Virus record (IMG/VR): IMGVR_UViG_3300035670_000026
Span: 62,001-126,000 of that record
Direction: 5' to 3' (one strand)
From: a virus
Length of the DNA: 64,000 bases
The notes beneath the pieces were generated by a model. That model saw only the letters and a list, made by a program, of their open reading frames with translations. It was not told the origin of the DNA and did no database searches. This document shows positions 4,171-22,225 of the stretch, one piece after another; positions within the stretch are counted from its first letter, which is position 1, and each line of letters begins with the position of its first letter. Position numbers and translations under genes: made by a program.

Positions 4171-7100
4171 ATGGCTCAAGTAAGATTCCTAGACCAAGTT
4201 CCAGTTGGCGTATATAATGTAGATCCTACGGGTACCGGTGCTGGTACCATTGATATATACCAAAATGGTACACTAGTAAGCGCTAGTGTTCCATATATTA
4301 ATATCAGCGGTTCAGCTGAGGTTTTAGGATTTGCACCATTCGGTACAAATAATGGTGTTACAATATACGTTTCTGGAGTAGGATTTCCATTTTCAGGTTC
4401 AGCCGAAATTACAGGATCTTTAGTAATCTCAGGTTCTGAGACTTATCCTATTATAATTCAAACCCTTCCGGTTCAAGATATTGAGTACGTAGTAACGTAC
4501 AACCCAATAACAGGTACTTTAGGATATGTAAATGCTACTTCTGGAACAAGCGGTATTTCAGGAACATCAGGAGCTTCAGGACAATCAGGCACTTCAGGAA
4601 CAAGTGGTACAGCAGGTACTACAGGAACTGCGGGTAACTCAGGTAATTCTCAAACTTCAGGTACAAGCGGTACCTCAGGTACAAATGGTTCAAGTGGTAC
4701 AGAAGGTATCTCAGGAATAAGTGCAACTTCTGGCACTAGTGGTACTAGTGGTTCAACAGGTACTTCAGGAAATAGTGAAAATTCAGGAACTAGTGGAACG
4801 AGTGGTACAAGTGGTACTAATGGTTCTGCTGGTACTTCTGGTATAAGTGAAAATAGTGGTACTTCAGGTACTTCCGGTACAAGTGGAACTAATGGTTCAT
4901 TAGGTACATCAGGAGAAAGCCAAACATCAGGTACTTCAGGTACTTCTGGGACAGCAGGTTCTTCAGGAACTGCGGGTGAATCAGGAAATAGTAAAACATC
5001 AGGAACTAGCGGTACTAGCGGTACTAGCGGTACTAGCGGTACTAGTGGTACAAGTGGTACAAACGGTAGCGCAGGTACAGCTGGTATAAGTGAAACCTCA
5101 GGTACAAGTGGTACCTCAGGAACAAGCGGTACAAATGGTTCTTCAGGAACTGCGGGTGAATCAAGCATAAGTGAAACTTCAGGCACTTCAGGCACTTCAG
5201 GTACCTCAGGAACAGCAGGTTCATCTGGAACCGCTGGTGAATCAGGTATAAGTGAAACCTCAGGTACAAGTGGTACTTCAGGTACTAATGGTAGTGCAGG
5301 TACAGCAGGTGCTTCACAAACAAGTGGTACAAGTGGTACTTCAGGTACCTCAGGTACAAATGGTAGTTCAGGTACTTCAGGAGAAAGTAATGTAAGTGGT
5401 ACTTCAGGAACATCTGGAACCTCAGGTAGTACTGGTACTTCTGGTACTTCAGGTAATGATGGTACTTCTGGCATATCTAGTACTTCAGGTACTAGTGGAA
5501 CTTCAGGTACTAGTGGTACAAGTGGTACAACAGGTACTGCTGGTTTAGATGGATTTGATGGTGTAAGTGGTGCTAGTGGTTCTTCAGGTTCTTCAGGTAC
5601 TAGTGGAACTTCAGGTTCTGTAGGTACAGCAGGTACTTCAGGAGTATCACAAACAGCAGGTACATCTGGTACTTCAGGTACATCTGGTACCAATGGTACA
5701 GCCGGTACATCAGGAAATAGTCAAACTTCAGGTACAAGCGGAACATCAGGTTCTTCAGGTACTTCTGGAGAAGATGGTACAAGTGGTACATCTGGTATTT
5801 CAGCTACAAGTGGAACTTCAGGTACCAACGGTTCAAACGGTACAGCAGGAGCTGCTGGACAATCAGGAGCAAGCGCTACTTCAGGTACTAGTGGAACTTC
5901 AGGTAGTACAGGTACTTCAGGGTTAAGTGGAAATTCAGATTCTTCAGGTACTAGTGGTACATCAGGTACTTCTGGTACATCTGGTACTGCAGGTTCTGCT
6001 GGTACTGCAGGTACAGCAGGAAATAGTGAAACAGCAGGTACATCAGGTACTTCAGGTACAAGCGGAACTAACGGTTCAGCTGGTACATCAGGTAATAGTG
6101 AAACCTCAGGTACTTCAGGAACTAGTGGTACTTCAGGAACAAATGGTTCTGCAGGTACAGCAGGTGCTACTGGACAGTCAGGTGCAAGTGCAACAAGTGG
6201 TACATCAGGAACTAGCGGTTCTACAGGTACTTCTGGTTTAAGTGGAAATAGTGAAACCTCTGGTACAAGTGGTACATCAGGTACTTCTGGTACGAGTGGT
6301 ACAACAGGTTCATCAGGAACCGCTGGTGAGTCAGGTACTAGTGAAACCTCAGGTACTAGCGGTACTAGTGGTACTAGCGGAACAAATGGTTCTTCTGGTA
6401 CAGCTGGTATTTCTGGTAATAGTGAAACTTCAGGTACATCTGGTACTTCAGGTACAAGTGGAACCAACGGTTCAGCAGGTACAGCTGGAGTTGCAGGTCA
6501 ATCAGGTGCAAGCGCTACTTCAGGTACAAGTGGAACAAGTGGTTCTACAGGTACATCAGGTTTAGCAGGAGTTAGTGAAACTTCAGGCACTTCGGGTACA
6601 AGTGGAACTTCAGGTACATCAGGAACAACAGGTTCATCTGGAACAGTTGGTGAATCAGGTACAAGTGGCACTTCAGGTACTTCAGGTACTTCAGGCACTT
6701 CAGGCACTTCAGGCACTTCAGGTACAAACGGTTCATCAGGAACATCAGGCGAATCAGGTACTAGTGCAACTTCAGGTACATCAGGTACAAGCGGAACTAA
6801 TGGTTCATCAGGAACTGCCGGAGCTGCAGGTCAATCAGGTGCAAGTGCAACTAGTGGTACCTCAGGTACTTCAGGTAGTACTGGTACTTCAGGTTTAGCA
6901 GGCGAAAGCAAAACATCAGGTACATCAGGTACTTCAGGTACTTCAGGTACAAACGGTTCATCAGGAACAGCAGGCGAATCAGGAAATAGTGAAACTTCTG
7001 GTACAAGTGGTACTAGTGGTACTAGTGGTACTAGTGGTACAAACGGTTCTTCAGGAACGGCAGGTGCTTCTGGTAATAGTGAAACATCAGGAACAAGTGG

Positions 7101-10100
7101 CACTTCAGGTACTTCAGGTACTAATGGTAGTACGGGTACAGCAGGTGCTGCTGGTCAGTCAGGTGCTAGTGCAACCTCAGGTACAAGTGGAACAAGTGGT
7201 TCTACAGGTACATCAGGTTTAGCAGGTGAAAGTAAAACTTCAGGTACAAGTGGAACTAGCGGTACTAATGGTAGCGCTGGAACAGCCGGTGCTTCTCAAA
7301 CAAGTGGTACTAGCGGTACATCAGGTACTAATGGTAGTGTAGGTACAGCTGGAGTTGCAGGTATTTCTGAAACAAGTGGTACTTCTGGTACAAGCGGTAC
7401 TAATGGTAGTGCTGGAACAACCGGTACTTCTCAAACAAGCGGAACTTCAGGTACTAGTGGTACTAACGGTTCAGCAGGTACTGCTGGAGCCGCTGGACAA
7501 TCAGGAGCTAGTGCAACAAGTGGTACAAGCGGAACAAGTGGTTCTACAGGTACTTCAGGATTAAGTAGCGACTCAGGTTCTGCAGGTACAAGTGGTACTA
7601 GTGGTACTTCCGGAACGAGCGGAACAAATGGTTCTTCTGGTACAGCAGGTGCTTCGGGCAATTCAAGAACTTCAGGAACTAGTGGTACAAGCGGTACAAA
7701 TGGTAGCGCAGGTACTTCTGGTATAAGTGATATATCAGGTACAAGTGGTACTTCAGGCACTTCAGGTACTTCAGGAACAAATGGTTCAAATGGTACAGCA
7801 GGTGCTGCTGGACAATCAGGAGCTAGTGCAACAAGTGGCACTTCAGGCACTTCAGGTTCTACAGGTACTTCAGGATTAGCAGGTGAAAGCAAAACATCAG
7901 GTACTAGCGGTACTTCAGGTACAAATGGTAGTGCAGGTACAGCAGGCGCTTCACAAACAAGTGGAACTTCTGGTACAAGCGGTACAAACGGTAGCGCAGG
8001 TACAGCAGGTGCTGCTGGATTAAGCAGAACATCAGGTACCTCAGGTACAAGCGGAACTAACGGTTCAGCAGGTACTGCCGGTAACTCAGGAAATAGTCAA
8101 ACTTCAGGTACAAGCGGTACCTCAGGAACAAATGGTAGCACGGGTACAGCCGGAGCTGCAGGACAATCAGGTGCAAGTGCTACAAGTGGTACTAGTGGTA
8201 CCTCAGGTAGTACAGGTACTTCAGGTTTAGCAGGCGCTTCTCAAACATCAGGTACAAGTGGTACTTCTGGTACTTCTGGTACTTCAGGCACAAATGGTAG
8301 CGTTGGAACAGCAGGCATTTCAGGTGATAGTAAAACATCAGGTACAAGTGGTACAAGCGGTACTAATGGTTCATCAGGTACTAACGGTAACGCAGGTGTT
8401 TCAGGTTTAAGTTCAACTTCAGGCACTAGCGGAACTTCAGGTTCATCAGGTACCTCAGGTTTAGCACGTACATCAGGTACTAGTTCAACAAGTGGAACTA
8501 GTGGTACAAGTGGAACAAATGGTTCTTCTGGTACAGCAGGTGCTTCAGGAAATAGTCAAACATCTGGAACTTCAGGTACTAGCGGTACAACAGGCAGTGC
8601 AGGTACAGCAGGCCAATCAGGTAATTCTCAAACAAGTGGCACCTCAGGTACAAGCGGTACAAGTGGAACAAATGGTTCTTCTGGTACAGCAGGTGCTGCT
8701 GGATTAAGTAGAACATCCGGTACAAGTGGTACTAGCGGAACTAATGGTTCAAATGGCACTTCAGGAAATGCAGGTACAGCAGGTGCAAGTGCGACTTCAG
8801 GTACAAGTGGTACAAGCGGTACTAATGGTTCATCAGGTACTAACGGTAACGCAGGTGTTTCAGGATTAAGTTCAACTTCAGGCACTAGTGGCACTTCAGG
8901 TTCATCAGGTACCTCAGGTTTAGCCCAAAATTCAGGAACATCAGGCACAAGTGGTACTAGCGGAACAAATGGCTCTGCAGGTACAAACGGTGCCTCAGGA
9001 AATAGTAGAACTTCTGGTACTAGTGGTACTAGTGGTACAGCTGGTACCTCAGGTACAGCAGGAGCTTCAGGAAATAGTCAAACATCAGGTACTAGTGGTA
9101 CAAGTGGCACAGCAGGTTCTGCTGGTACTGCAGGTACAGCAGGTGCTTCAGGTGATAGTAAAACATCAGGTACTAGCGGTACATCAGGAACTAATGGTTC
9201 AGCAGGTACAGCAGGAGCTGCTGGATTAAGTCAGACATCAGGTACTAGTGGTACTAGCGGAACTAATGGCTCAACAGGTACAGCGGGAGTTTCAGGTAAT
9301 AGTAGAACAGCGGGTACATCCGGTACAAGCGGTACAAGTGGTACTAACGGTTCAAACGGAACTTCAGGTAATGCAGGTGTTTCAGGATTAAGCTCTACAA
9401 GTGGCACTTCAGGAACAAGTGGTTCAAGTGGTACTTCAGGTTTAGCTCAAACAGCTGGTTCAAGTTCAGCTTCTCAAACAAGCGGCACCTCAGGTACTAG
9501 TGGTACATCAGGAGCTACTCAAACAGCAGGTTCAAGTTCATCATCACAAACTAGTGGTACAAGCGGTACTTCAGGAACTAATGGTTCATCAGGTACGGCA
9601 GGTGCATCCGGTAATAGTAGAACATCAGGAACATCAGGAACTAGCGGAACAAACGGTTCAGCTGGTACAGCAGGTTCTTCACAAACTTCTGGCACTTCAG
9701 GTACAAGCGGTACAGCTGGTTCAAATGGTACAGCCGGTGTAGCAGGTGCTTCTCAAACAAGTGGTACAAGCGGTACAAGTGGTACAAACGGTAGTGCTGG
9801 TACAGCAGGTGCTTCTGGATTAAGTAGAACATCAGGCACAAGTGGTACTTCAGGTACAAACGGTTCATCAGGTACTAATGGAAACGCAGGTGTTTCAGGA
9901 TTAAGCTCTACAAGTGGCACTTCAGGCACTTCAGGTTCATCAGGTACTTCAGGTTTAGCCCAAAATTCAGGCACTTCAGGTACTTCAGGTACAAGCGGAA
10001 CAAATGGTTCATCTGGTACAAATGGTGCTGCTGGAAACAGCAGAACTTCAGGAACAAGTGGTACTAGCGGTACAGCAGGTTCTGCAGGTACAAATGGTAC

Positions 10101-11877
10101 AGCAGGTGCTTCTGGATTAAGCCGGACATCAGGTACAAGTGGTACTAGTGGTACTAATGGTAGTTCAGGTACTGCCGGTACAGCAGGAGCTTCAGGTAAT
10201 AGTAGAACATCAGGAACATCAGGTACTAGTGGAACAAATGGTTCTTCAGGTACAGCAGGTGTTGCAGGTATATCACAAACTTCAGGAACAAGTGGTACTA
10301 GCGGAACTAATGGTTCAGCAGGTACAGCTGGTAACTCAGGTCAATCAAGTACATCAGGAACTAGTGGTACTTCAGGTACTAATGGTTCAGCAGGTACAAA
10401 CGGTAACGCAGGTGTTTCAGGTTTAAGTTCAACTTCAGGCACTTCAGGAACAAGTGGTTCATCAGGAACTTCAGGTTTAGCTCGTACAGCAGGTTCAAGT
10501 TCAGCTTCTCAAACAAGTGGTACATCAGGTACAAGCGGTACTTCAGGTGCAACACAAACAGCCGGTTCTAGTTCTGCGTCACAAACTAGCGGAACAAGTG
10601 GTACTAGCGGAACTTCAGGTTCAACAGGAACTGCAGGACAAGCAGGTGCTTCACGGACCTCAGGTACAAGCGGTACAAGCGGAACTAACGGTTCTTCAGG
10701 TACTAATGGTGCTTCAGGAAATAGTAGAACTTCAGGTACTAGCGGTACAAGTGGTAGTACAGGTACAGGAGGTAATGCAGGTGCATCTCAAACAAGTGGT
10801 ACTAGTGGAACAAATGGTTCTTCTGGTACAAATGGAGCTTCAGGTAATAGTAGAACTTCAGGTACAAGCGGTACTTCAGGTACTAATGGTTCAGCAGGTA
10901 CAAACGGTAACGCAGGTGTTTCAGGTTTAAGTTCAACTTCAGGCACTTCAGGAACAAGTGGTTCAAGTGGTACCTCAGGTTTAGCACGTACTTCAGGAAC
11001 AAGTGGTACTAGTGGTACAGCAGGTTCTTCAGGTACAAATGGTGCCTCAGGAAATAGTAGAACATCAGGCACAAGTGGTACTTCAGGTACAAGTGGTTCA
11101 TTAGGTACTTCAGGTAACGCTGGAGGTAGTGGTGTAAGTAATACTTCAGGTACAAGTGGTACCTCAGGTTCAAGTGGTACTGGTGGTGCATCAGGTGCAA
11201 GTAGAACATCTGGTACTTCAGGTACTAGTGGTACAAGCGGTATTTCAGGTAATGTTGGTACAGCTGGTACTTACGTGTCTATAATCGCAGGAAATGGTTT
11301 AACTGGAGGTGGTCAATTAACTACAGATAGAACATTAGATGTAGGAGCAGGTATTGGTATAACAGTTAATGCAAATGATGTTGCTTTAGCATTAGTATCA
11401 AATAGCCCCCCAGAATTATTATATTGGGATGGTTCTCAATTTATAGAATTTACAAGTGGTCCTTTAAGTGCTGGTCCTAATTTCTTAGATGGTAACGGAC
11501 TAATCGATTTAAATAATTTCAATAACTTCTCAGCTAATAGTAAATCGTTTGATATTGTTCACCCAACAAAAGGCGAACCTTGGAGATTAAGATATGGTGT
11601 TTTAGAAGGTCCTGAACATGGTGTTTACTTTAGAGGTTATACAACTGAAAAAGTAATCGAATTACCTGATTACTGGACTGGATTAGTACACGATAATAGC
11701 TACACAGTACAATTAACTCCTGTAGGGAATTGTATGCACTACGTAGTAGAAATTAAAGATAATAAAGTACACATTGATTCAGCTTGTGGAGAAGTAACAT
11801 GTTATTACTTGATTCAAGCAGAAAGAAAAGATGTTGAAAAAGTACTTCTCGAATATAAAAGAGATACAAAAGGATAA
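4171..11877 (+). CDS. Giant collagen-like (Gly-X-Y) Thr/Ser-rich fibre protein
   Basis: 2568 residues. Residues 1 to about 120 are a non-repetitive beta-type head. About 120-2365 is an uninterrupted Gly-X-Y array built from GTS, GTN, GSS, GSA, GTA, GAS and similar triplets, almost without Pro. Every 5-8 triplets one Gly is replaced by Q, E, K, R, A, S or D (for example NSETSGTSG, NSRTSGTSG), defining modules. The C-terminal 200 residues begin with GNGLTGGGQLTTDRTL, a common phage-fibre element, then KSFDIVHPTKGEPWRLRYG and YFRGYTTEKVIELPDYWTG, a tip/chaperone-like domain seen in cyanophage and T4-like tail fibres. It is thus probably a trimeric virion fibre with a very long flexible shaft. 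It lies between neck and sheath genes, followed by a second repeat fibre and sugar-transfer genes. Whether it binds host, glycan or mucus is not shown by sequence. Confidence 0.85.
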   Translation: MAQVRFLDQVPVGVYNVDPTGTGAGTIDIYQNGTLVSASVPYINISGSAEVLGFAPFGTNNGVTIYVSGVGFPFSGSAEITGSLVISGSETYPIIIQTLPVQDIEYVVTYNPITGTLGYVNATSGTSGISGTSGASGQSGTSGTSGTAGTTGTAGNSGNSQTSGTSGTSGTNGSSGTEGISGISATSGTSGTSGSTGTSGNSENSGTSGTSGTSGTNGSAGTSGISENSGTSGTSGTSGTNGSLGTSGESQTSGTSGTSGTAGSSGTAGESGNSKTSGTSGTSGTSGTSGTSGTSGTNGSAGTAGISETSGTSGTSGTSGTNGSSGTAGESSISETSGTSGTSGTSGTAGSSGTAGESGISETSGTSGTSGTNGSAGTAGASQTSGTSGTSGTSGTNGSSGTSGESNVSGTSGTSGTSGSTGTSGTSGNDGTSGISSTSGTSGTSGTSGTSGTTGTAGLDGFDGVSGASGSSGSSGTSGTSGSVGTAGTSGVSQTAGTSGTSGTSGTNGTAGTSGNSQTSGTSGTSGSSGTSGEDGTSGTSGISATSGTSGTNGSNGTAGAAGQSGASATSGTSGTSGSTGTSGLSGNSDSSGTSGTSGTSGTSGTAGSAGTAGTAGNSETAGTSGTSGTSGTNGSAGTSGNSETSGTSGTSGTSGTNGSAGTAGATGQSGASATSGTSGTSGSTGTSGLSGNSETSGTSGTSGTSGTSGTTGSSGTAGESGTSETSGTSGTSGTSGTNGSSGTAGISGNSETSGTSGTSGTSGTNGSAGTAGVAGQSGASATSGTSGTSGSTGTSGLAGVSETSGTSGTSGTSGTSGTTGSSGTVGESGTSGTSGTSGTSGTSGTSGTSGTNGSSGTSGESGTSATSGTSGTSGTNGSSGTAGAAGQSGASATSGTSGTSGSTGTSGLAGESKTSGTSGTSGTSGTNGSSGTAGESGNSETSGTSGTSGTSGTSGTNGSSGTAGASGNSETSGTSGTSGTSGTNGSTGTAGAAGQSGASATSGTSGTSGSTGTSGLAGESKTSGTSGTSGTNGSAGTAGASQTSGTSGTSGTNGSVGTAGVAGISETSGTSGTSGTNGSAGTTGTSQTSGTSGTSGTNGSAGTAGAAGQSGASATSGTSGTSGSTGTSGLSSDSGSAGTSGTSGTSGTSGTNGSSGTAGASGNSRTSGTSGTSGTNGSAGTSGISDISGTSGTSGTSGTSGTNGSNGTAGAAGQSGASATSGTSGTSGSTGTSGLAGESKTSGTSGTSGTNGSAGTAGASQTSGTSGTSGTNGSAGTAGAAGLSRTSGTSGTSGTNGSAGTAGNSGNSQTSGTSGTSGTNGSTGTAGAAGQSGASATSGTSGTSGSTGTSGLAGASQTSGTSGTSGTSGTSGTNGSVGTAGISGDSKTSGTSGTSGTNGSSGTNGNAGVSGLSSTSGTSGTSGSSGTSGLARTSGTSSTSGTSGTSGTNGSSGTAGASGNSQTSGTSGTSGTTGSAGTAGQSGNSQTSGTSGTSGTSGTNGSSGTAGAAGLSRTSGTSGTSGTNGSNGTSGNAGTAGASATSGTSGTSGTNGSSGTNGNAGVSGLSSTSGTSGTSGSSGTSGLAQNSGTSGTSGTSGTNGSAGTNGASGNSRTSGTSGTSGTAGTSGTAGASGNSQTSGTSGTSGTAGSAGTAGTAGASGDSKTSGTSGTSGTNGSAGTAGAAGLSQTSGTSGTSGTNGSTGTAGVSGNSRTAGTSGTSGTSGTNGSNGTSGNAGVSGLSSTSGTSGTSGSSGTSGLAQTAGSSSASQTSGTSGTSGTSGATQTAGSSSSSQTSGTSGTSGTNGSSGTAGASGNSRTSGTSGTSGTNGSAGTAGSSQTSGTSGTSGTAGSNGTAGVAGASQTSGTSGTSGTNGSAGTAGASGLSRTSGTSGTSGTNGSSGTNGNAGVSGLSSTSGTSGTSGSSGTSGLAQNSGTSGTSGTSGTNGSSGTNGAAGNSRTSGTSGTSGTAGSAGTNGTAGASGLSRTSGTSGTSGTNGSSGTAGTAGASGNSRTSGTSGTSGTNGSSGTAGVAGISQTSGTSGTSGTNGSAGTAGNSGQSSTSGTSGTSGTNGSAGTNGNAGVSGLSSTSGTSGTSGSSGTSGLARTAGSSSASQTSGTSGTSGTSGATQTAGSSSASQTSGTSGTSGTSGSTGTAGQAGASRTSGTSGTSGTNGSSGTNGASGNSRTSGTSGTSGSTGTGGNAGASQTSGTSGTNGSSGTNGASGNSRTSGTSGTSGTNGSAGTNGNAGVSGLSSTSGTSGTSGSSGTSGLARTSGTSGTSGTAGSSGTNGASGNSRTSGTSGTSGTSGSLGTSGNAGGSGVSNTSGTSGTSGSSGTGGASGASRTSGTSGTSGTSGISGNVGTAGTYVSIIAGNGLTGGGQLTTDRTLDVGAGIGITVNANDVALALVSNSPPELLYWDGSQFIEFTSGPLSAGPNFLDGNGLIDLNNFNNFSANSKSFDIVHPTKGEPWRLRYGVLEGPEHGVYFRGYTTEKVIELPDYWTGLVHDNSYTVQLTPVGNCMHYVVEIKDNKVHIDSACGEVTCYYLIQAERKDVEKVLLEYKRDTKG
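4530..11265 (+). repeat. Coding tandem repeat array (Gly-X-Y modules), fibre 1
   Basis: About 6.7 kb of 9-nt-periodic coding repeat (GGN ACN TCN/AGY). The peptide repeats are strict, but codons are mixed: GGT/GGA/GGC, ACT/ACA/ACC, and TCA/TCT/AGT/AGC all alternate. Exact DNA identity is therefore mostly short. Exceptions are local runs such as 5005-5040 (four copies of ACTAGCGGT) and longer near-identical blocks around 8375, 8835, 9880, 10395 and 10900 that encode GNAGVSGLSSTSG. Confidence 0.9.
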
Positions 11878-11899: not shown

Positions 11900-14800
11900 A
11901 TGGCTAAAAATGTAACCATAATACCAGGTTCGGGTTCGTTAGAATTTACAGATTCTAATGGCAAGTCAATTAAAATGGTTCTTACCGGATCATTAAATGA
12001 CACTTTAATGTTTGTAAGTGGTAGTGTTCCTATTATGGAAATAAATCCCACTAATGGTTTGGATACAAATAAACCTCCTAAATTTAATGAGGTACCAGAA
12101 GACAATAATTTACCAAATTACCTTGTATACAACGTAAATAATGGGTCTATAGGTTATAGATCAATAGCAAATGGTTCATCTGGTACAGCAGGTACTACAG
12201 GCACTAGTGGACCAAGTAGAACATCAGGCACATCAGGCACATCAGGAACAAACGGTTCTGCTGGTACAAATGGAGCATCAGGAGCAAGCCGTACTTCAGG
12301 TACATCAGGAACAAGTGGTACAGCAGGTAGTGCGGGTACTAGTGGTGCTGCACGGACAGCAGGTTCAAGCTCAGCATCACAAACTTCAGGTACAAGTGGT
12401 ACAAGCGGTACTTCAGGAGCTACTCAAAACGCTGGTTCTAGTTCTGCATCACGGACTTCAGGTACATCCGGTACTAGTGGAACAAATGGTTCTACAGGTA
12501 CAAATGGAGCCGCAGGTGCTTCAGGTACTTCTAGAACCTCAGGTACTAGTGGTACAAATGGTAGTGCTGGTACAAATGGTAATGCCGGTGTCTCAGGGGC
12601 TAGTTCAACCTCAGGTACTTCAGGGACTAGTGGTTCCTCAGGCACTTCAGGTTTAGCACAGACCGCAGGTTCAAGCTCAAACAGCCGGACTTCAGGTACA
12701 AGTGGTACAAGCGGTACTTCAGGTGCTGCACGGAATGCTGGTACAAGCTCTGCATCTCAAACCTCAGGAACCTCAGGTACAAGCGGTACAAATGGTAGTA
12801 TAGGTACAGGAGGTGCAGCTGGAGCATCAGGACAATCACGGACTTCTGGTACAAGCGGAACTTCAGGTACAGCAGGTAGCGCAGGTACTTCAGGTGCTTC
12901 ACGTACTGCCGGTTCAAGCTCATCTTCACAAACCTCAGGAACTAGTGGTACAAGTGGTACCTCAGGAGCAACCCAATCTGCAGGTTCAAGCTCAGCATCA
13001 CAAACTTCAGGTACAAGCGGCACAAGCGGTACTAATGGTAGTGCTGGTACAAACGGAATAGCAGGAGCATCAGGTGTAAGCCGAACTTCAGGAACGTCAG
13101 GAACAAATGGCTCAAATGGTACTTCAGGTGCTAATGGGGCTTCAGGAAATAGTAGAACCTCAGGAACTAGTGGTACAAGCGGTACTAATGGTTCATCAGG
13201 TACAAATGGTAACGCAGGTGTTTCAGGAGTTTCTCCAACCTCAGGTACAAGTGGAACTAGTGGTTCTTCAGGAACAAGTGGTTTAGCACAGACCGCAGGT
13301 TCAAGCTCAAACAGCCGGACTTCAGGTACAAGTGGTACCTCAGGTACATCAGGAGCTGCACGGAATGCAGGTTCAAGTTCTGCAAGCTTTACTTCAGGTA
13401 CAAGTGGTACCTCAGGAACAAATGGTAGTGCAGGTACAGGAGGTGCAGCTGGAGCATCAGGACAATCACGAACTTCTGGTACTTCAGGAACAAACGGTTC
13501 AGCAGGTACAAACGGAGCTTCAGGAGCTTCACGAACTTCAGGCACTAGTGGTACTTCAGGTACAGCAGGTAGCGCAGGTACTTCAGGTGCTGCACGGACA
13601 GCAGGTTCAAGTTCATCATCTCAAACCTCAGGTACAACAGGTACAAGTGGTACCTCAGGAGCAACCCAATCTGCAGGTTCAAGTTCTGCATCACGGACTT
13701 CAGGTACTTCCGGTACCTCAGGTACAAATGGTTCAGCTGGTACTAATGGCAACGCCGGTGCTTCAGGCGTAAGCCGGACTTCAGGTACTTCAGGTACAAA
13801 TGGTTCAAGTGGTACTTCAGGAGCAAATGGTGCCTCTGGAGTATCAAGAACTTCCGGAACTAGTGGTACTAATGGCTCTTCAGGTACAAGTGGTAATGCT
13901 GGAGCTTCAGGAGTTGCTTCAACTTCAGGCACAAGTGGTACTTCAGGTTCTTCAGGTACTTCAGGTTTAGCACGAACAGCAGGACAAAGTACCTCATCTC
14001 AAACCTCAGGTACAAGTGGTACAAATGGTTCAAGTGGTGCTGGTAGAACAGCTGGTACAAGTTCAGCATCACAAACTTCAGGTACAAGCGGCACAAGCGG
14101 TACTTCAGGTGCTGTACAAACAGCAGGTTCAAGCTCAAACAGTCGGACTTCAGGTACAACAGGTACTTCAGGAACATCAGGTGCAAACCAAAATGCTGGT
14201 TCAAGCTCAGCATCACGGACTTCAGGTACATCAGGTACTTCAGGTACAAATGGTAGTTCGGGTACTTCAGGTATTTCAGGTGCTGCTGGTGTAAGTGGAG
14301 CAAGCCAAACCTCAGGTACAACAGGTACAAGTGGTACCTCAGGAGCAACCCAATCTGCAGGTTCAAGTTCTGCATCACGGACTTCAGGAACAAGTGGCAC
14401 TTCAGGAACGTCAGGAGCTACACGGACATCAGGTTCAAGTTCATTATCACAAACCTCAGGTACAAGTGGTACAAATGGTTCAAGTGGTGCTGGTAGAACA
14501 GCTGGTACAAGTACCGCCTCTCAAACTAGTGGTACAAGTGGTACAAGTGGTACAGGAGGTGCAACTACAAACGCAGGTGCTAGTTCAGCATCACGGACTT
14601 CAGGCACAAGTGGTACTAGCGGTACTTCTGGACAAGGACGGAGTGCAGGTACAAGTACAGCAAGTTTTACCTCAGGCACATCAGGTACAAGTGGTTCAAC
14701 AGGTGCTGCACGTACTGCAGGACAAAGTACAGCATCACAAACCTCAGGTACTTCAGGTTCAAGTGGAACATCAGGTGCGGCCACAGTCGCAGGTTCAAGT

Positions 14801-15328
14801 TCAAACAGCCGAACTTCAGGTACAACAGGTACTTCAGGAACATCAGGTGCTGCTAGAACAGCTGGACAAAGTTCAGCAAGCCGGACTTCAGGAACCAATG
14901 GTACATCAGGTACTTCAGGTGCTGCAAGAACTTCAGGTACAAGTTCAGCTTCTGGAACTTCAGGAACAAGTGGCGTATCAGGTACCTCAGGTTTATCATT
15001 TAATGGTACTAGTGGTATTAGTGGTGGTGTATTTACTAACCAACCAGATTATTTAGTTAAAACTACAGGAACAACTACAATACAAAGTGTATCATTTTTA
15101 TCAGTTTCAGGTGCTACTTTAAATGTAACAGGTACTGTTGCTACTAGTTTTTTACAAGTAGATAATGCAGGTGGGTTTTTTAATTTTCAACCCCCAGGTG
15201 GTCCTAACGGAGTAGATCAAGTTTATACAAATATAAACCCAAATTTTGTATTAGGTGAACCAGATGTTTGGTTGATAGTAAACGTAAATGGAATTGATTA
15301 TGTATTTCCGGGATATGCAGCTCCGTAA
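11900..15328 (+). CDS. Second collagen-like (Gly-X-Y) fibre protein
   Basis: 1142 residues. A short head (1 to about 92) shares with fibre 1 the pattern YN-x3-G-x2-GY just before the repeats start. The Gly-X-Y array spans about 93-1035. Its modules differ from fibre 1: AGSSSASQTSG, GAARTAGSSS and ASRTSGTSG dominate, the substituted Gly is mostly R or Q, and acidic residues are nearly absent. The C-terminal 100 residues end in LGEPDVWLIVNVNGIDYVFPGY, a compact element like those closing other phage fibre or whisker proteins. It probably forms a separate shorter fibre or a distal partner of fibre 1. It is the last gene before the glycosyltransferase cassette. Confidence 0.8.
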   Translation: MAKNVTIIPGSGSLEFTDSNGKSIKMVLTGSLNDTLMFVSGSVPIMEINPTNGLDTNKPPKFNEVPEDNNLPNYLVYNVNNGSIGYRSIANGSSGTAGTTGTSGPSRTSGTSGTSGTNGSAGTNGASGASRTSGTSGTSGTAGSAGTSGAARTAGSSSASQTSGTSGTSGTSGATQNAGSSSASRTSGTSGTSGTNGSTGTNGAAGASGTSRTSGTSGTNGSAGTNGNAGVSGASSTSGTSGTSGSSGTSGLAQTAGSSSNSRTSGTSGTSGTSGAARNAGTSSASQTSGTSGTSGTNGSIGTGGAAGASGQSRTSGTSGTSGTAGSAGTSGASRTAGSSSSSQTSGTSGTSGTSGATQSAGSSSASQTSGTSGTSGTNGSAGTNGIAGASGVSRTSGTSGTNGSNGTSGANGASGNSRTSGTSGTSGTNGSSGTNGNAGVSGVSPTSGTSGTSGSSGTSGLAQTAGSSSNSRTSGTSGTSGTSGAARNAGSSSASFTSGTSGTSGTNGSAGTGGAAGASGQSRTSGTSGTNGSAGTNGASGASRTSGTSGTSGTAGSAGTSGAARTAGSSSSSQTSGTTGTSGTSGATQSAGSSSASRTSGTSGTSGTNGSAGTNGNAGASGVSRTSGTSGTNGSSGTSGANGASGVSRTSGTSGTNGSSGTSGNAGASGVASTSGTSGTSGSSGTSGLARTAGQSTSSQTSGTSGTNGSSGAGRTAGTSSASQTSGTSGTSGTSGAVQTAGSSSNSRTSGTTGTSGTSGANQNAGSSSASRTSGTSGTSGTNGSSGTSGISGAAGVSGASQTSGTTGTSGTSGATQSAGSSSASRTSGTSGTSGTSGATRTSGSSSLSQTSGTSGTNGSSGAGRTAGTSTASQTSGTSGTSGTGGATTNAGASSASRTSGTSGTSGTSGQGRSAGTSTASFTSGTSGTSGSTGAARTAGQSTASQTSGTSGSSGTSGAATVAGSSSNSRTSGTTGTSGTSGAARTAGQSSASRTSGTNGTSGTSGAARTSGTSSASGTSGTSGVSGTSGLSFNGTSGISGGVFTNQPDYLVKTTGTTTIQSVSFLSVSGATLNVTGTVATSFLQVDNAGGFFNFQPPGGPNGVDQVYTNINPNFVLGEPDVWLIVNVNGIDYVFPGYAAP
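12165..15005 (+). repeat. Coding tandem repeat array (Gly-X-Y modules), fibre 2
   Basis: About 2.8 kb of the same 9-nt-periodic coding repeat. Longer units recur here, such as a block encoding AQTAGSSSNSRTSG (near 12657 and 13288) and one encoding AGSSSASRTSG. CGG arginine codons are notably frequent at the substituted-Gly position, unlike the rest of the window, where AGA/CGT dominate. Confidence 0.85.
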
Positions 15329-15334
15329 TTAAAC

Positions 15335-15363
15335 TTGGATATTTAAATATTTTTATTTATATT
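15335..15363 (+). promoter_or_regulatory. Host-sigma-like promoter TTGG-N19-TATATT (hybrid with late box)
   Basis: TTGG at 15335 and TATATT at 15358 have exactly 19 bases between them, as in seven other leaders here. The pattern fits the Bacteroidota -33 TTTG / -7 TAnnTTTG promoter. A TATTTATA octamer overlaps at 15354-15361. The spacer holds the palindrome ATATTTAAATAT. ATG follows 18 bases after TATATT. Confidence 0.6.
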
Positions 15364-15381
15364 TATTGGAAATATTCTGTT

Positions 15382-17373
15382 ATGAAAAAATTGTTATATA
15401 TTGCTCCACATTTATCTACAGGTGGACTACCTCAATATTTAACTAAAAAAATTGAATTACTTAAAGATGAATTCGACATCTACCTTGTAGAATGGGCAGA
15501 TGTTACGGGTGGTGTTTTAGTAGTAACACGAAATAAAATTCTTAAATTAGTTAAACCTGATAATTTTTTTACATTAGGTGAAAATAAAATAGAATTAATT
15601 GATATAATTAATCGTGTTCAACCCGATATTGTTCATACTGAAGAAATTCCTGAGTTTTATATGGATTTTGATGTAGCATCTAAATTATATAAAACAGACC
15701 GCAAATATATTATTGTAGAAACCTCACACGATTCATCATTTGATACAACCCAGAAAAAATTTTACCCAGATAAATTTATGTTTGTATCAAATTGGCAAAT
15801 TGAACAATATAAAGATATTGATATTCCACGCGTATTAGTCGAATATCCTATCGAATATATTGAACGCCCTAACCGCGAAGAGGCACTGCGTAAATTACAA
15901 TTAGACCCCGCTAAAAAACACATTTTACACGTTGGGTTATATACCTCTCGCAAAAATCAAGCTGAATTTTTTGAATATGCTCGTTCAATGCCTGAATATG
16001 AATTTCATAGTTTAGGTAATAGAGCTGATAATTTTAAATGGTATTGGGAACCATTATCTAATGATACTCCTCCAAATTTAACCTGGTGGAATGAACGCAC
16101 AGATGTAGATGCTTTTTATCAAGCAATGGATTTATTTTTATTTACATCTCGTGGTTCAGCAAATGATAAAGAAACAATGCCTTTAGTTATTCGTGAAGCA
16201 ATTTCATACCAAACTCCAGTTTTGATTTATAATTTAGGTGTTTATCAAAATTATTTTGATAAATTTAAAGGAGTAAAATATCTTGAATTTGATAATTTTG
16301 AAAAAAATTGTGAATTAATTAAAGAAGTTGTAGAAACAAAAGAAACAATCGATATTGAACAAGAAGCAATTATTATTTCTACATATCCTATTCAACAAAG
16401 TGTAATAGATTCTACAAAAGAATGCATTGAATCTTTTAAACAAACAGGAAGAAAAATTATATTAACTTCTCACGTTCCTATTCCTGAAGAATTACAAGAA
16501 TTAGTTGATTATTGTGTTTATGATAAAAATAATTTATTAACTAAACACGATTTTTATTATCATTGCTGGGTTGATTATGGACATTTTAAAGTAAATACAA
16601 TTTTACAAGGTGAAGACAATGATGTTTATCATGGTCCTGCTGTTTATACAAATTATTATAACGCAGCTTCATTAGCAAAAAATATAGGAACTAAAAAATT
16701 ATTTTTTATTAATTACGACTATATCCTTACTAACCCAGAATTTATAAATGAAATTTCTTTTAAATTAAATAAGAAAAAAGCATTTGTTGATGAAAGAAAA
16801 TATTCAGAGGGTGAAGTAAGTAGTACTTTCTTTATAGGTATTCAAACAGATTTATTCTTTAAAACTCACGAATTTATTTCTACAGCTGCTGGATATGATA
16901 ATTTAAAACATAAAGTAGGTAGTTTATCTAATGGTTATGAAAATATATTCTATTTTGCTTTACAACCTTTTAGAAATCAAATTCATATAGAATCAGCTGA
17001 AAATTGGGATAAATTAATTAGTGAAAATTTTAAACACAATAATTTTTCTCGTATAGAATATACTACTGTTTTACCAACTAATGTTGAAAATCATTTTGCT
17101 ATTTACTATCAAAATTCAAATGAAGTAGATAGTAGAAATTTAGTTGTAAGCGCTATAGAAGAAGGACAAGAAATTTTTAATGAAACTATTAACATTACTA
17201 GTAAATTTGCTTGGTATAGACTTCATCAAATCAATGATAAAGAACTTATAATTAATTTTGAGTTTTATGATGCTCATAATAATAAGTTTTTAAGTAAAAA
17301 AACTATTGTTGTAAATAAAGATTACATTGATAATAAATTACAAACAAACGGACTTTTAGAAAAAGTATTATGA
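15382..17373 (+). CDS. GT4-type glycosyltransferase with long C-terminal extension
   Basis: 663 residues. It starts MKKLLYIAPHLSTGGLPQYL, the N-terminal strand and glycine loop of GT-B glycosyltransferases. ILHVGLYTSRKNQAEFF and DLFLFTSRGSANDKETMPLVIREAISY (donor-binding region, EAIS in place of EAMA) lie at about 175-290. Residues beyond about 330 form an extra domain of unknown function, possibly a second glycosyltransferase-like fold. It heads the cassette 15382-20192 behind its own promoter, right after two Ser/Thr-rich fibres, so transfer of sugar to the fibres is a reasonable inference. The next gene overlaps by 4 bases. Confidence 0.75.
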   Translation: MKKLLYIAPHLSTGGLPQYLTKKIELLKDEFDIYLVEWADVTGGVLVVTRNKILKLVKPDNFFTLGENKIELIDIINRVQPDIVHTEEIPEFYMDFDVASKLYKTDRKYIIVETSHDSSFDTTQKKFYPDKFMFVSNWQIEQYKDIDIPRVLVEYPIEYIERPNREEALRKLQLDPAKKHILHVGLYTSRKNQAEFFEYARSMPEYEFHSLGNRADNFKWYWEPLSNDTPPNLTWWNERTDVDAFYQAMDLFLFTSRGSANDKETMPLVIREAISYQTPVLIYNLGVYQNYFDKFKGVKYLEFDNFEKNCELIKEVVETKETIDIEQEAIIISTYPIQQSVIDSTKECIESFKQTGRKIILTSHVPIPEELQELVDYCVYDKNNLLTKHDFYYHCWVDYGHFKVNTILQGEDNDVYHGPAVYTNYYNAASLAKNIGTKKLFFINYDYILTNPEFINEISFKLNKKKAFVDERKYSEGEVSSTFFIGIQTDLFFKTHEFISTAAGYDNLKHKVGSLSNGYENIFYFALQPFRNQIHIESAENWDKLISENFKHNNFSRIEYTTVLPTNVENHFAIYYQNSNEVDSRNLVVSAIEEGQEIFNETINITSKFAWYRLHQINDKELIINFEFYDAHNNKFLSKKTIVVNKDYIDNKLQTNGLLEKVL

Positions 17374-18317
17374 AAATATGCCAAGTAAATCCAGGTTGTG
17401 GTATTCCTATTCCTCCTCCAGCATGGGGAGCAATTGAAAAAATTGTATGGGAATTTATGTGCAATCTAAAAAAATTAGGACACGAAGTAGATTTAAAATG
17501 GGCCAATGAAGTACAACCAGGTGAATATGATGTTGTGATGGTTCACGTTGCTAATTTAGCAATTGAATTAGCTAACAGAGGTATTCCCTATGTATTTCAA
17601 CATCACGACCACCATGCATATCATTACGGAAAAGATTCATTTATTTATAAAGAAAATAGAGAAGCAATGGAACGCTCTGTTTTTTCTTTAGTTCCTGCTC
17701 GTTATTTAGTTGAATATTTTGATTTACCTAATGTGTATTATTTTTCACACGGGGCGGATACAAAAAGTTTTTATCCAAATCAAACACCTCCATTAATGCA
17801 TAATTTATTAATGGTTGCAAATAATGGTTTAGGTGGTTATGGAGCATATGATAGAAAAGGATTTGGATTAGGAGTCCAAATAGCAATGTCTCGTAATTTA
17901 CCTATTACAATTGCTGGTCCTAAAAATAATGAAAAATGGCTTAAAGATAATCCTTGGGTATTAGGTTATCCTAAATTAACAATGGCTTGGGATATTCCAA
18001 ATGAGGAATTAAGACAACTTTATACATCACATACAATATTTTTACATCCAAGTGAATTAGAAGCTGGACATCCTAATTTAACCTTACTAGAGGCAGCAGC
18101 TTGTGGTTTACCTATTTTAGGATGGATTGAGATGGAAACTACATTTCATGGATTATGGAGAGCACCTCGTGATTTAAACTTGCTTCTTAAAGGATTAGAT
18201 GTTATTATTAATGAATATGGAGACTATAGACAACGTTCACTTAATACAGCAAAAGAATTATCATGGTTAAATCGCTCAAAAGAATTAATAGAATTATTTA
18301 AAAAACATGCGCACTAA
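17370..18317 (+). CDS. Glycosyltransferase family 4-like
   Basis: 315 residues. The N-terminal MKICQVNPGCGIPIPPPAWGAIEKIVWEF is a GT-B start like those of polysaccharide glycosyltransferases. The C-terminal half has HTIFLHPSELEAGHPNLTLLEAAACGLPILG, the donor-binding E-x7-E type motif of family 4. Start ATG 17370 overlaps the upstream stop (ATGA), so it is translationally coupled. Predicted retaining, nucleotide-sugar dependent; the sugar cannot be read from sequence. Confidence 0.85.
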   Translation: MKICQVNPGCGIPIPPPAWGAIEKIVWEFMCNLKKLGHEVDLKWANEVQPGEYDVVMVHVANLAIELANRGIPYVFQHHDHHAYHYGKDSFIYKENREAMERSVFSLVPARYLVEYFDLPNVYYFSHGADTKSFYPNQTPPLMHNLLMVANNGLGGYGAYDRKGFGLGVQIAMSRNLPITIAGPKNNEKWLKDNPWVLGYPKLTMAWDIPNEELRQLYTSHTIFLHPSELEAGHPNLTLLEAAACGLPILGWIEMETTFHGLWRAPRDLNLLLKGLDVIINEYGDYRQRSLNTAKELSWLNRSKELIELFKKHAH

Positions 18318-18993
18318 ATTTTATACAAAAAACGACCAAATAATTGATATTTCAACTTGGGATACATCCTTAAGCCAAAATGAAATGGGAGATAAATATG
18401 GTTGGGAAGGATCTATGGCTTTTGGAAATTTAATTCACGATGAATTAAATCAATGGGGTCCTGGTATGCAATATGGAGATATTTATCTTGATTTAGGAGC
18501 AAATATTGGTATGTCTGCTCTTAGAGCAGAATCAAAAGGTTGCTCAAAAATATACTGTGTAGAACCAGACCCAGGAGTATTTGAAGCTTTAAATAAAAAT
18601 AAAAACTATAATTGGATTGTTGATAATATAGCTATTGGTTCCGAAAGAGGATACATTGACATTCCAAAATGGCCTAACTGGTGGGATACTCAACCTATCC
18701 AATGTATTACTTTAGATGAATTTTTTGCAAAACATAATCTTACAAAAGTAGATTACATGAAAGTTGATATTGAAGGACATGAAAAATATGTTTTTAATAA
18801 TGTTAGTCAAATTACATGGGATAAAATTAATAAAATATTTTTTGAATTTCATGAAGATGTAGATACATTAAGCACTGAACAACGAAATGAAGAAAGAATA
18901 AAATTCTGCCAATTCTATTCAGATAAAGGTTTTAATAATCATCATGTCGATTTAGGATACTATCAAAGTTTTATTTATTTTTGGAAATCATGA
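18307..18993 (+). CDS. FkbM-family methyltransferase
   Basis: 228 residues. YLDLGANIGMSALRA is the SAM-binding motif I, IYCVEPDPGVFEAL is the acidic loop, and DYMKVDIEGHEKYVF is the FkbM signature. FkbM enzymes O-methylate sugars or small molecules. It sits between two sugar-transfer genes, overlapping the previous one by 11 bases and the next by 4, so it probably caps or tailors the glycan made by this cassette. Confidence 0.85.
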   Translation: MRTKFYTKNDQIIDISTWDTSLSQNEMGDKYGWEGSMAFGNLIHDELNQWGPGMQYGDIYLDLGANIGMSALRAESKGCSKIYCVEPDPGVFEALNKNKNYNWIVDNIAIGSERGYIDIPKWPNWWDTQPIQCITLDEFFAKHNLTKVDYMKVDIEGHEKYVFNNVSQITWDKINKIFFEFHEDVDTLSTEQRNEERIKFCQFYSDKGFNNHHVDLGYYQSFIYFWKS

Positions 18994-20192
18994 AAGAAGT
19001 TTTAATAAACGAATATAACAATACTGAAATTTTAAGGATATCTCATAGAGAACCTGAAAATACTTTTAATATTAATTTTTTAGATGGACCTTTTGTAGAA
19101 GTTTTAGGTCCTTTACAAAAAGAATATCTTATTAAATTTGTTAATACTAAAACTAATCGTGTTTTATTCGAGAATACTATTACTAATAATATGTGGACTC
19201 GTTCTAATATAAAATACTTAGTTAAATGGCGTATTGAAATTTATGATAAAAAAACAGGTGAAAAAATTATTGAACATACATTTAATCCTCAAGGAAAACG
19301 AGTTTATATTCATTTAGATTCATCTGCTGTAGGTGATACATTAGCATGGTTTCCTCTTATTGAAGAATTTAGAAAAGAAAATAATTGTGAAGTAGCTTGT
19401 TCAACTTTTCATAATGAATGGTTTGAAAAAAACTACCCTAAATTAGAATTTATAAAACCAGGTACTGAAGTACGTGATTTATATGCTATGTTTACTATTG
19501 GGTGGTTTTATGATAATAAAAAAGTTGTATTTGATAGAACACCAATTGATTTTAAAAAATATCCTTTACAACAAACCGCTACAGAAATTTTAGGATTAAA
19601 ATATAAAGAAGTTAAACCTCAATTAGTAACTCCTGAACGAAAAACAGATATTGAAGGAAAATATGTTGTAATTGCTCCCCATGCTTCAGCACATGCTAAG
19701 TATTGGATGTATCCAGGAGGATGGCAAACAGTTATTGATTATTTAAACGAAAAAGGATATAAAGTAGCAATGATTACTGGTGAACCTTTAAATGATGATT
19801 GGCACGATTCAAAACTTGGAGGTACATTAACTGGAGTAATCGATAAAACAGGATTTCACATTGATTTAGAAGATAGAATGATAGACATTCGTGATGCTTC
19901 TGCTTTTATTGGTTTAGGAAGTGGATTAAGTTGGTTATCTTGGGCATTAAATACTCCTACAGTTTTAATTTCCGGATTTAGTTATCCATATACTGAATTT
20001 CAGGATTGTGAAAGAATTTACCCTAAAGATCCTAAAACATGTAGAGGATGTTTTAACCGCCATTGGTTAAACCCAGGAGATTGGGAATGGTGTCCTGATC
20101 ATAAAAATACTCCTCGTCAATTTGAATGTACAAAAGTTATTGAACCTTCTCAAATAATAGAATCTCTTAATAAACTTCTTAATATTTATTAA
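18990..20192 (+). CDS. Heptosyltransferase-like protein of the BAHT (AAH/TibC) type
   Basis: 400 residues from ATG 18990 (the upstream in-frame TTG at 18981 is less likely). KRVYIHLDSSAVGDTLAWFP and VVIAPHASAHAKYWMYPGGW are the GT9 heptosyltransferase hallmarks (glycine loop and donor-binding region). The C-terminal cysteines C351, C354, C368 and C380 match the four-cysteine iron site of the autotransporter heptosyltransferases AAH and TibC, which glycosylate protein Ser residues. Residues 1-100 form a separate N-terminal domain. By family knowledge this is a protein-O-heptosyltransferase rather than an LPS enzyme. Its position after giant Ser/Thr fibres makes them the obvious candidate substrate; that is inference. 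Confidence 0.7.
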   Translation: MKEVLINEYNNTEILRISHREPENTFNINFLDGPFVEVLGPLQKEYLIKFVNTKTNRVLFENTITNNMWTRSNIKYLVKWRIEIYDKKTGEKIIEHTFNPQGKRVYIHLDSSAVGDTLAWFPLIEEFRKENNCEVACSTFHNEWFEKNYPKLEFIKPGTEVRDLYAMFTIGWFYDNKKVVFDRTPIDFKKYPLQQTATEILGLKYKEVKPQLVTPERKTDIEGKYVVIAPHASAHAKYWMYPGGWQTVIDYLNEKGYKVAMITGEPLNDDWHDSKLGGTLTGVIDKTGFHIDLEDRMIDIRDASAFIGLGSGLSWLSWALNTPTVLISGFSYPYTEFQDCERIYPKDPKTCRGCFNRHWLNPGDWEWCPDHKNTPRQFECTKVIEPSQIIESLNKLLNIY

Positions 20193-20193
20193 C

Positions 20194-20442
20194 ATGGAAA
20201 ATAAAGTTTTAACACCAGAAGAGTTATCTAAATTACAAGAACTAAATAATAAAAGAGGAGATTTAGTTGAACGTTTTGGAGTTATCGAAATCAATATTCA
20301 AGATTTAGAACTTCAAAAAGAACAATTAATCGAAGAGTTATCACAAATTAAAAAAGCCGAGTTAGAAATTGGAGCTTTGTTACAACAAAAATATGGTGAT
20401 TCAAACATAAATTTATCCACCGGAGAAATAACTCCAAGATAA
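20194..20442 (+). CDS. Small coiled-coil protein
   Basis: 82 residues. About 8-65 is a predicted coiled coil with heptad Leu/Ile (LQEL, LELQKEQLIEELSQI). It ends in a short polar tail. No family is recognised. It begins one base after the heptosyltransferase-like gene and is followed by the late promoter of the sheath gene. A virion assembly factor or trimerisation helper is possible, but nothing proves it. Confidence 0.7.
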   Translation: MENKVLTPEELSKLQELNNKRGDLVERFGVIEINIQDLELQKEQLIEELSQIKKAELEIGALLQQKYGDSNINLSTGEITPR

Positions 20443-20494: not shown

Positions 20495-22225
20495 ATGGCA
20501 GAAACATTAATATCTCCTGGTGTATTAGCGTTAGAAAACGACAATTCATTTGTATCGTCTCAACCTGTAACCGTAGGAGCAGCTATTATCGGTCCTACTG
20601 TAAAAGGTCCTGTAAACGTACCAACAATTGTTACATCTTATAGCGATTACCAAAATAAATTTGGTACTACTTTTTTAAGTGCAAGCCAAGTTTACAGCTA
20701 CTTTACTTCAATTGCTGCTTACAACTATTTCAACAATGGTGGTCAAACCTTATTAGTTTCAAGAGTAGTAACTGGTTCATTTACTAGCGCAACTACAGCT
20801 ACTGGTTCAGGTACTCCCATAATAGAATCAACTAATATTGAAGCTTTAGTATTAAAAACTATTTCTCAAGGTGAAATTATGAATAACACTGGATCTATGG
20901 ATATCAGTGGTTCTTTAGTTTCTGGTTCAGTCGATAATATTAGATGGCAAGTTACTAACAGAGATACATCATCTGGTACATTTAGTTTATTAGTTAGACA
21001 AGGTGATGATAATGCAAATACTCCAATTGTACTAGAAACTTGGACTAATTTATCAATGGACCCAACAGCTCCTAACTATGTATCTAGAATAATTGGTGAC
21101 CAATACAGACAATATAATTCAACAGATAACCAAATTGAAGTAATTGGAACTTATCCTAACAACTCAAGATATGTCTATGTATCTAGTGTTAATACTCCTA
21201 CACCATTATATTTTGATAACAATGGTTTAGCTAAAGCAGCATTTACCGGTTCAATTCCTATAAATGGTAGTGGTTCATTTGGAGCAGCTACCGGTGCTTT
21301 ATTTGTAGGAGTTGCTGATTATTACAATGCTATTGATTTAGCTACAACAACTCCACAAGGTATTTCAGCAAGTGCTTACACTAATATGGTTAATTTATTA
21401 GGTAATGCTGATGATTATAGATATAATGTATTATTAACCCCTGGTTTATTCTCTTCAACAGCTAATTTAGGTGCTTCTCAAGTAACTACAGCAATCAATA
21501 ATACTCAAAATAGAGGAGATGCAATTTACGTAACCGATTTAGTACCATTTAGTTCAAGTATCTCAGAAGTAACTACTCAAGCAAATGCTAAAAATACTTC
21601 ATATGCTGCTGCTTACTGGCCTTGGTTACAAACCATCGATCCAGATTCAGCTCAATTAGTATGGGTACCAGCTTCAACAATGATTGGTGGTGTTTATGCT
21701 TACAACGATAACGTAAGTGAGCCATGGTTTGCACCAGCAGGTATTAACAGAGGTGGATTAGGTAACGTAGTAAGAGCTGAAAAGAAATTGTCTCAAGCTA
21801 ACCGCGATACTTTATATACAAATAAAGTTAACCCAATTGCAACATTCCCTGGAACAGGAGTTGTAGTATACGGACAGAAAACATTACAAACTAAAGCATC
21901 TGCACTTGACCGTGTAAACGTTCGTAGATTGTTAATCCAACTTAAGTCTTATATTTCTCAAGTAGCTCAAAACTTAGTGTTCGAACAAAACACAATCGCT
22001 ACAAGAAACCAATTCTTAAGCCAAGTTAACCCATACTTAGAATCAGTACAACAACGTCAAGGTTTGTACGCGTTTAAGGTGATCATGGACGATAGCAATA
22101 ATACAGCTGATGTAATTGATAGAAACCAGATGGTAGGTCAAATTTATATTCAACCTACTAAAACAGCAGAATTTATTTACTTGGATTTCAACATCTTACC
22201 TACAGGTGCTACTTTCCCAGCGTAA
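20495..22225 (+). CDS. 18: Contractile tail sheath protein
   Basis: 576 residues. The N-terminal MAETLISPGVLALENDNS and TVGAAIIGPTVKGPVNVP are the sheath signature, and the C-terminal domain has NVRRLLIQLKSYISQVAQN and FNILPTGATFPA. It forms the outer contractile cylinder around the tube. The middle (about 100-330) is a variable surface domain. The tube gene follows after 39 bases with its own late box, as in T4 18-19. Codons here look optimised (many AAC, GTA, CTT), as expected for an abundant protein. Confidence 0.95.
   Translation: MAETLISPGVLALENDNSFVSSQPVTVGAAIIGPTVKGPVNVPTIVTSYSDYQNKFGTTFLSASQVYSYFTSIAAYNYFNNGGQTLLVSRVVTGSFTSATTATGSGTPIIESTNIEALVLKTISQGEIMNNTGSMDISGSLVSGSVDNIRWQVTNRDTSSGTFSLLVRQGDDNANTPIVLETWTNLSMDPTAPNYVSRIIGDQYRQYNSTDNQIEVIGTYPNNSRYVYVSSVNTPTPLYFDNNGLAKAAFTGSIPINGSGSFGAATGALFVGVADYYNAIDLATTTPQGISASAYTNMVNLLGNADDYRYNVLLTPGLFSSTANLGASQVTTAINNTQNRGDAIYVTDLVPFSSSISEVTTQANAKNTSYAAAYWPWLQTIDPDSAQLVWVPASTMIGGVYAYNDNVSEPWFAPAGINRGGLGNVVRAEKKLSQANRDTLYTNKVNPIATFPGTGVVVYGQKTLQTKASALDRVNVRRLLIQLKSYISQVAQNLVFEQNTIATRNQFLSQVNPYLESVQQRQGLYAFKVIMDDSNNTADVIDRNQMVGQIYIQPTKTAEFIYLDFNILPTGATFPA

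Follow-up and report, generated by a model that had tools for sequence, protein, structure and literature searches.

Protein O-heptosylation by enzymes of the TibC/AAH family is known from autotransporters (PMC4358343), and the described pairs are TibC/TibA and AAH/AIDA-I of Escherichia coli (BAHT family, TIGR04414). The locus described here, in a window of 64,000 nucleotides (62001-126000 in a virus record 149.8 kb long), resembles these systems in encoding an enzyme of the same family over nearly its full length, with the catalytic and ADP-heptose-binding residues and the four-Cys iron finger, and in placing the gene for this enzyme next to that of a candidate substrate that is long, repetitive and rich in Ser. 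It differs in that the enzyme is encoded by a phage, that its partner is a collagen-type fibre instead of an autotransporter, that it would act with further glycosyltransferases and decorating enzymes, and that the Phe-Val pair at the thumb tip is replaced by Asp-Asp.

Four other systems offer partial parallels. Mycobacteriophages carry glycans on virion proteins (Freeman et al. 2023, cited in PMC12619734), but those glycans are attached to capsid and tail-tube subunits at their C-termini, whereas the present case concerns collagen-like fibres of giant size and an enzyme of TibC type. Mimivirus likewise has a viral enzyme, its own hydroxylase-glycosyltransferase, that glycosylates a viral collagen-like protein (Luther et al. 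2011, cited in PMC8968730); it is, however, a virus of amoebae, the collagen lysine is modified, and the enzyme is unrelated. BclA, a glycosylated bacterial collagen-like protein (cited in PMC8968730), bears sugars on a Thr-rich collagen-like filament, but it is a Pro-rich spore protein modified by other enzymes. In pelagimyophages (PMC7029224) fibres and glycosyltransferases share a variable island in T4-like aquatic phages, but this was read there as host-surface modification, and the relevant passages mention neither a TibC-type enzyme nor a linkage to fibre repeats. No earlier report of a phage-encoded TibC/AAH-family enzyme, or of the enzyme-fibre combination and its breadth, was found in the accessible literature; subscription papers lay mostly outside it, and earlier reports cannot be excluded.

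The insertion site in the window is bordered on the left by a conserved gene (3183-4136, +) and on the right by the tail sheath gene (20495-22225, +; PHROG 23, tail sheath, E 2e-75); it holds two giant genes for fibres and four for enzymes, each of them on the + strand. The left-hand gene is kept with and without the cassette, and a neck-region role for it is inferred from position only. The first fibre (4171-11877, 2568 aa) and the second (11900-15328, 1142 aa) are followed by a two-domain glycosyltransferase (glycosyltransferase A, 15382-17373), a GT4-type glycosyltransferase (glycosyltransferase B, 17370-18317), an accessory FkbM-family methyltransferase (18307-18993) and a TibC/AAH-type protein O-heptosyltransferase (18981-20192, where the TTG start was set by a program and the first and likely start ATG is at 18990). 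Adjacent enzyme genes share overlaps of a few bases, and the gap between cassette and sheath holds a small + strand gene of unknown function (20194-20442), probably coiled-coil and present in many relatives. The initial annotation had placed overlapping enzyme genes directly after the two fibres and before the sheath; this arrangement held for all the genes, and the heptosyltransferase start that it gave, 18990, fits the first ATG.

The fibres had been annotated as Thr/Ser-rich, which also held, with the refinement that both are built of Gly-X-Y triplets and are collagen-like. The Pfam Collagen model (PF01391, cut-off 27.2) matched the first fibre at 660.7 bits and the second at 159.8 bits, and triplet analysis found Thr mostly in X and Ser mostly in Y in both, a triplet pattern that far exceeds chance. 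Together the two proteins contain about 1,680 Ser and Thr residues; each has almost no Pro, and Gly is missing at about every eighth triplet. The C-terminal 120 aa or so of the first fibre resemble phage proteins of unknown function (PHROG 17490, E 1e-34), and collagen-like models were the only NCBIfam matches of the second, the first having been outside that search. The collagen type is shown at the level of sequence, which leaves the formation of a triple helix open. The non-Gly triplet interruptions were also considered as a marker of enzyme-bearing phages and were rejected, since no such pattern was seen.

Judged by its sequence, the product of the 18981-20192 ORF belongs fully to the TibC/AAH family. 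Its match to TIGR04414 scored 292.6 bits (equivalog cut-off 200) and spanned positions 25-373 of the 374 in the model; among proteins of solved structure, TibC is its closest relative (PDB 4rap, E 8e-55). Residues were mapped using TibC residues 20-386, with site roles taken from PMC4358343, and 30 enzymes were compared. The iron-finger cysteines C354, C357, C371 and C383 of the window enzyme correspond to C339, C342, C358 and C370 of TibC and are identical in all 30 enzymes, which establishes the cysteines only and not iron content. D119 corresponds to the catalytic Asp110 of TibC, S236 to Thr226 (Ser for Thr), K240 to Lys230, R299 to Arg286 and W318 to Trp305. The positions of the catalytic Asp, Lys230 and Trp305 are invariant (30/30), that of Thr226 is Ser or Thr throughout, and the adenine-contact Arg (Arg286) is conserved in 25 of the 30. 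The family score and the conserved catalytic, ADP-heptose-contact and iron-Cys residues make the enzyme look active and true to its family, although activity is inferred from sequence, as is heptose transfer to Ser. The claim of a heptosyltransferase with the four-Cys iron site of AAH/TibC therefore held, on the equivalog score, the 4rap match and all four cysteines.

The thumb of the phage enzyme is less orthodox. In TibC the hydrophobic thumb tip, Phe265-Val266, is required for the dodecamer, and the F265D and V266D variants are inactive dimers (PMC4358343). These residues align to Asp272-Asp273 in the window enzyme, nearby gaps making the exact pairing less sure, and the first thumb-tip position is Asp in 26/30 enzymes. 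As the dodecamer-building thumb tip is not conserved, the assembly of the phage enzyme should differ from that of TibC; such an altered assembly would, by inference, suit a fibre-shaped substrate. As the partner is a collagen-type fibre and not an autotransporter passenger with strand-loop-strand repeats, it is classed with the enzyme family as a phage branch, and not as an autotransporter system. The loss of the thumb tip counts against glycosylation of the fibre, and so does the difference in partner: TibC acts on Ser in beta-helix autotransporters, a fold unlike collagen.

Two GT-B glycosyltransferases and an FkbM methyltransferase had also been annotated in the cassette. The GT-B assignment held with a refinement, in that ORF 15382-17373 (Pfam Glycos_transf_1, 39.3 bits) also has a second, GT-A-type domain and a beta-sandwich. 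In AlphaFold2 models (pLDDT 85 and 95), residues 1-322 form a GT-B/GT4 domain with a HepE-like fold (Z 21.8, rmsd 3.1, 300 residues) and residues ~325-545 a GT-A-like domain (Z 14.6, rmsd 3.0, 167 residues), after which comes the beta-sandwich. The possibility that this beta-sandwich is the N-terminal domain of TibC gained no support (profile comparison probability 7%). The GT-A domain fits many GT-A enzymes about equally well, COLGALT1 included, and therefore no subfamily is claimed; longer relatives of this ORF show a domain resembling GT25, the collagen galactosyltransferase family, which at 19.4 bits stays below the cut-off of 24 and is a lead only. The second glycosyltransferase, ORF 17370-18317 (Pfam Glycos_transf_1, 33 bits), had no match in a sequence search of the PDB. 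The FkbM methyltransferase held (TIGR01444, 78.7 bits, cut-off 37.7).

Of 34 enzyme loci left after dereplication, 33 have the one transferase gene and 33 the other, and just 11 have FkbM. Methylation is therefore optional, and the earlier claim of methylated glycans is less well supported. Elsewhere the cassette also encodes a carbamoyltransferase or a GT25-like domain that stays below cut-off. Among unrelated phages there are fusions of the heptosyltransferase with one or other of the transferases, glycosyltransferase B among them; these fusions are shown, and they tie the enzymes to one pathway, the order in which the enzymes act being inferred. Two individual loci may be recorded here. A carbamoyltransferase (Pfam 197 bits) lies within the cassette of L055 (8362-10026), in the clade with a convergent fibre gene. 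L142 (4298-6157) encodes, close to its diverged heptosyltransferase fusion, a protein that joins a glycosyltransferase-like domain to one resembling a 2-oxoglutarate oxygenase (40.2 bits, cut-off 150); this resembles the Mimivirus hydroxylase-glycosyltransferase in layout only.

The initial annotation had proposed checking the co-occurrence of enzymes and fibres across phages, and this check was run. With one query, enzyme relatives were found to be encoded by 227 stretches of viral contigs, of which 80 loci were retrieved, and 80 loci of sheath relatives were retrieved separately. Pooling both searches with the record of Flavobacterium phage immuto, whose sheath is 54% identical to that of the window phage, gave 41 contigs after dereplication, each reaching 6 kb or more upstream of the sheath. 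Enzyme and Gly-Thr-Ser fibre were both present in 27, the enzyme alone in 4, neither in 10 and the fibre alone in none (Fisher p = 9e-7). The sheath tree requires at least nine gains or losses of the enzyme. Of the phylogenetically independent pairs, 6-7 show the fibre changing in step with the enzyme and none show it changing in the other direction (median p 0.016). Enzyme and Gly-Thr-Ser fibre have been gained and lost together in this phage lineage. Sheath relatives without the enzyme carry other fibre-like genes at the site, some of them S/T-rich and none Gly-Thr-Ser.

Homologous cassettes in phages lacking such fibres would, according to the initial annotation, have refuted its reading. 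Four loci of the sheath lineage have the enzyme only. Two of them have other repeat fibres: in L037 an S/T-rich fibre of YadA-like repeats that ends in an S74 chaperone domain, and in L123 a Gly-Pro-X collagen-like fibre; the third, L025, is truncated by the contig end, and the fourth, L142, has a diverged, fused enzyme. A true exception is a 636-kb phage, in which the enzyme is present and a DNA pattern search gave zero Gly-Thr-Ser matches. YadA-like fibres with GGG/NTASG repeats adjoin the same cassette in both L037 (1-4290, with the S74 chaperone end) and L035 (2-2293), and it is possible that they represent a second fibre type sharing the enzyme.

The neighbourhood of the cassette raises the alternative that another virion protein (sheath, neck or other tail protein) is glycosylated and not the Gly-Thr-Ser fibre. 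In its favour, the sheath and other conserved structural genes adjoin the cassette in the window. Against it, the sheath and neck-region genes are retained in relatives without the cassette, and L055-L065, a 735-kb phage and others pair the cassette with a Gly-Thr-Ser fibre with no related sheath in the retrieved flanks. This alternative is regarded as very unlikely. The pairing is kept while gene order varies, the fibre gene being convergent in L055-L065 and divergent in the 735-kb phage.

The association was also approached from the fibre side, by retrieving contigs through the Gly-Thr-Ser triplet DNA pattern alone and then filtering for real triplet ORFs and length. The enzyme was found in 19/46 such contigs (18 over cut-off) and in 14/19 of those of at least 50 kb, the other 5/19 having none. 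Only 1/38 contigs with a Gly-Pro-X pattern had it (1/18; p ~2e-5 against 19/46), although this control set may differ in host make-up from the Gly-Thr-Ser set. In 13/19 contigs fibre and enzyme were no more than about 10 kb apart, compared with 7.7 expected (p = 0.005), and the same held for 9/13 contigs of at least 60 kb, compared with 3.3 expected (p = 0.0009), in a test that assumes a 5-kb fibre gene. These observations show, as an association, that the enzyme tracks Gly-Thr-Ser repeats and not collagen-like fibres in general. Just 4 of 50,697 records in the GenBank phage collection match. A cultured relative, Microcystis phage Mel-JY01, has the enzyme in fused form, preceded by a Gly-X-Y protein. 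Phages that are unrelated also have the cassette, in rearranged or fused form; one of them is the 735-kb phage, where it lies back to back with a Gly-Thr-Ser protein and where the pattern matches number 965 overall. Many of the Gly-Thr-Ser DNA matches in that phage (LR756501.1, from ~103.5 kb) are far from the cassette and represent another giant fibre.

Another alternative is that the cassette alters a host surface receptor (lipopolysaccharide or capsule) and blocks superinfection, the fibres adjoining it only through a shared, variable host-recognition island. Pelagimyophage host-recognition clusters mix fibres and glycosyltransferases, and this role was proposed for them (PMC7029224). Host-surface action is the usual proposal for phage glycosyltransferases, and GT4, FkbM and GT25-like genes are also found in surface-sugar pathways. 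However, the family of the central enzyme modifies protein in its studied members, and the iron finger is kept; moreover, the enzyme follows one kind of fibre repeat across repeated gains and losses, and not collagen-like fibres generally. Host-surface modification is considered unlikely.

The best explanation is that the window phage O-glycosylates its own collagen-like fibre with a self-contained fibre-glycosylation module. This is likely, although no protein chemistry supports it yet, and the corresponding claim of the initial annotation is supported and strengthened by the joint gain and loss in the sheath lineage and the association in unrelated phages. The fibre as substrate is inferred. 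In the proposed scheme, the TibC/AAH-type enzyme would start the glycan, most likely with a heptose taken from ADP-heptose, on many Ser residues (perhaps also Thr) of the collagen-type Gly-Thr-Ser fibres, in the host cytoplasm and ahead of virion assembly. The GT4 and GT-A enzymes would then lengthen this sugar, and the optional genes would methylate (FkbM) or otherwise decorate the glycan. The predicted product is a long, heavily glycosylated virion fibre, perhaps at the neck or tail given the gene positions.

The identity of the first sugar is not settled; heptose is likely as a best guess by inference and is not a result, the host of the window phage being unknown. A variant of the same explanation, which remains possible, is that the fibre is O-glycosylated with a non-heptose sugar, the donor preference having shifted to the host supply. 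In its favour, a canonical heptose adenylyltransferase over cut-off was found in 0/60 genomes from the family of the sole bacterial bin with the cassette (Winogradskyella), so that donor supply is unclear if such flavobacteria are hosts, and the stereoselectivity residue of the family (Pro300 in TibC, Ser in AAH) is mostly Gly among the phage enzymes compared. Against it, the other ADP-heptose contact residues are conserved, and two phage records bring their own heptose-pathway genes over curated cut-offs. The 636-kb phage encodes the sedoheptulose-7-phosphate isomerase GmhA (251.5 bits, cut-off 209.45), and record G015 encodes an HldE-type heptose adenylyltransferase (L468 8607-9095) at 183.2 bits, just above the cut-off of 181.5. 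In the other records (23/24) neither search brought up a heptose-pathway gene above its cut-off. A fragment resembling a heptose adenylyltransferase, right at the beginning of the virus record, was discounted as too short and too weak (35.4 bits, cut-off 181.5). The GmhA gene of the 636-kb phage (L467 6084-6653; LR756504.1, ~430.1 kb) lies about 27 kb from its TibC-type enzyme. Flavobacteriaceae-like genomes were considered as a bacterial source of the cassette and rejected, as only 1/299 exceeded the cut-off, namely the bin holding L156. L156 itself, binned as a Winogradskyella genome, has a phage sheath and the whole cassette and is a phage contig in a bacterial bin.

If the fibre is indeed the substrate, a family of protein-glycosylating enzymes from bacterial adhesins extends to a large set of environmental phages, and a concrete substrate is available for phage glycosyltransferases, which are usually read as modifying the host surface or DNA. 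A natural, proline-poor glycosylated collagen would also become available for study. The proposal makes it testable how environmental phages coat their virions, and may bear on surface attachment and escape from recognition. Any role of the glycans in stiffening, shielding or adhesion is inferred: the adhesion or shielding role suggested in the initial annotation is less well supported, and its comparison with a phage mucin, less supported for a collagen-like fibre, stands as an analogy only. A bolder reading, no more than possible at present, is that Gly-Thr-Ser collagen fibres of very great length and with almost no proline are stabilised by dense TibC-type O-glycosylation. The glycans might then replace the role of proline and hydroxyproline in animal collagen, and a widespread class of sugar-stiffened viral collagen might exist.

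Two further observations were made. One ORF in the enzyme-bearing phage contig L187 has 429 Gly-X-Y triplets in a single unbroken run and contains 1.7% Pro. A QueC-like gene elsewhere in the window (45718-46593, Pfam 123 bits) points to a possible 7-deazaguanine DNA-modification pathway in the window phage.
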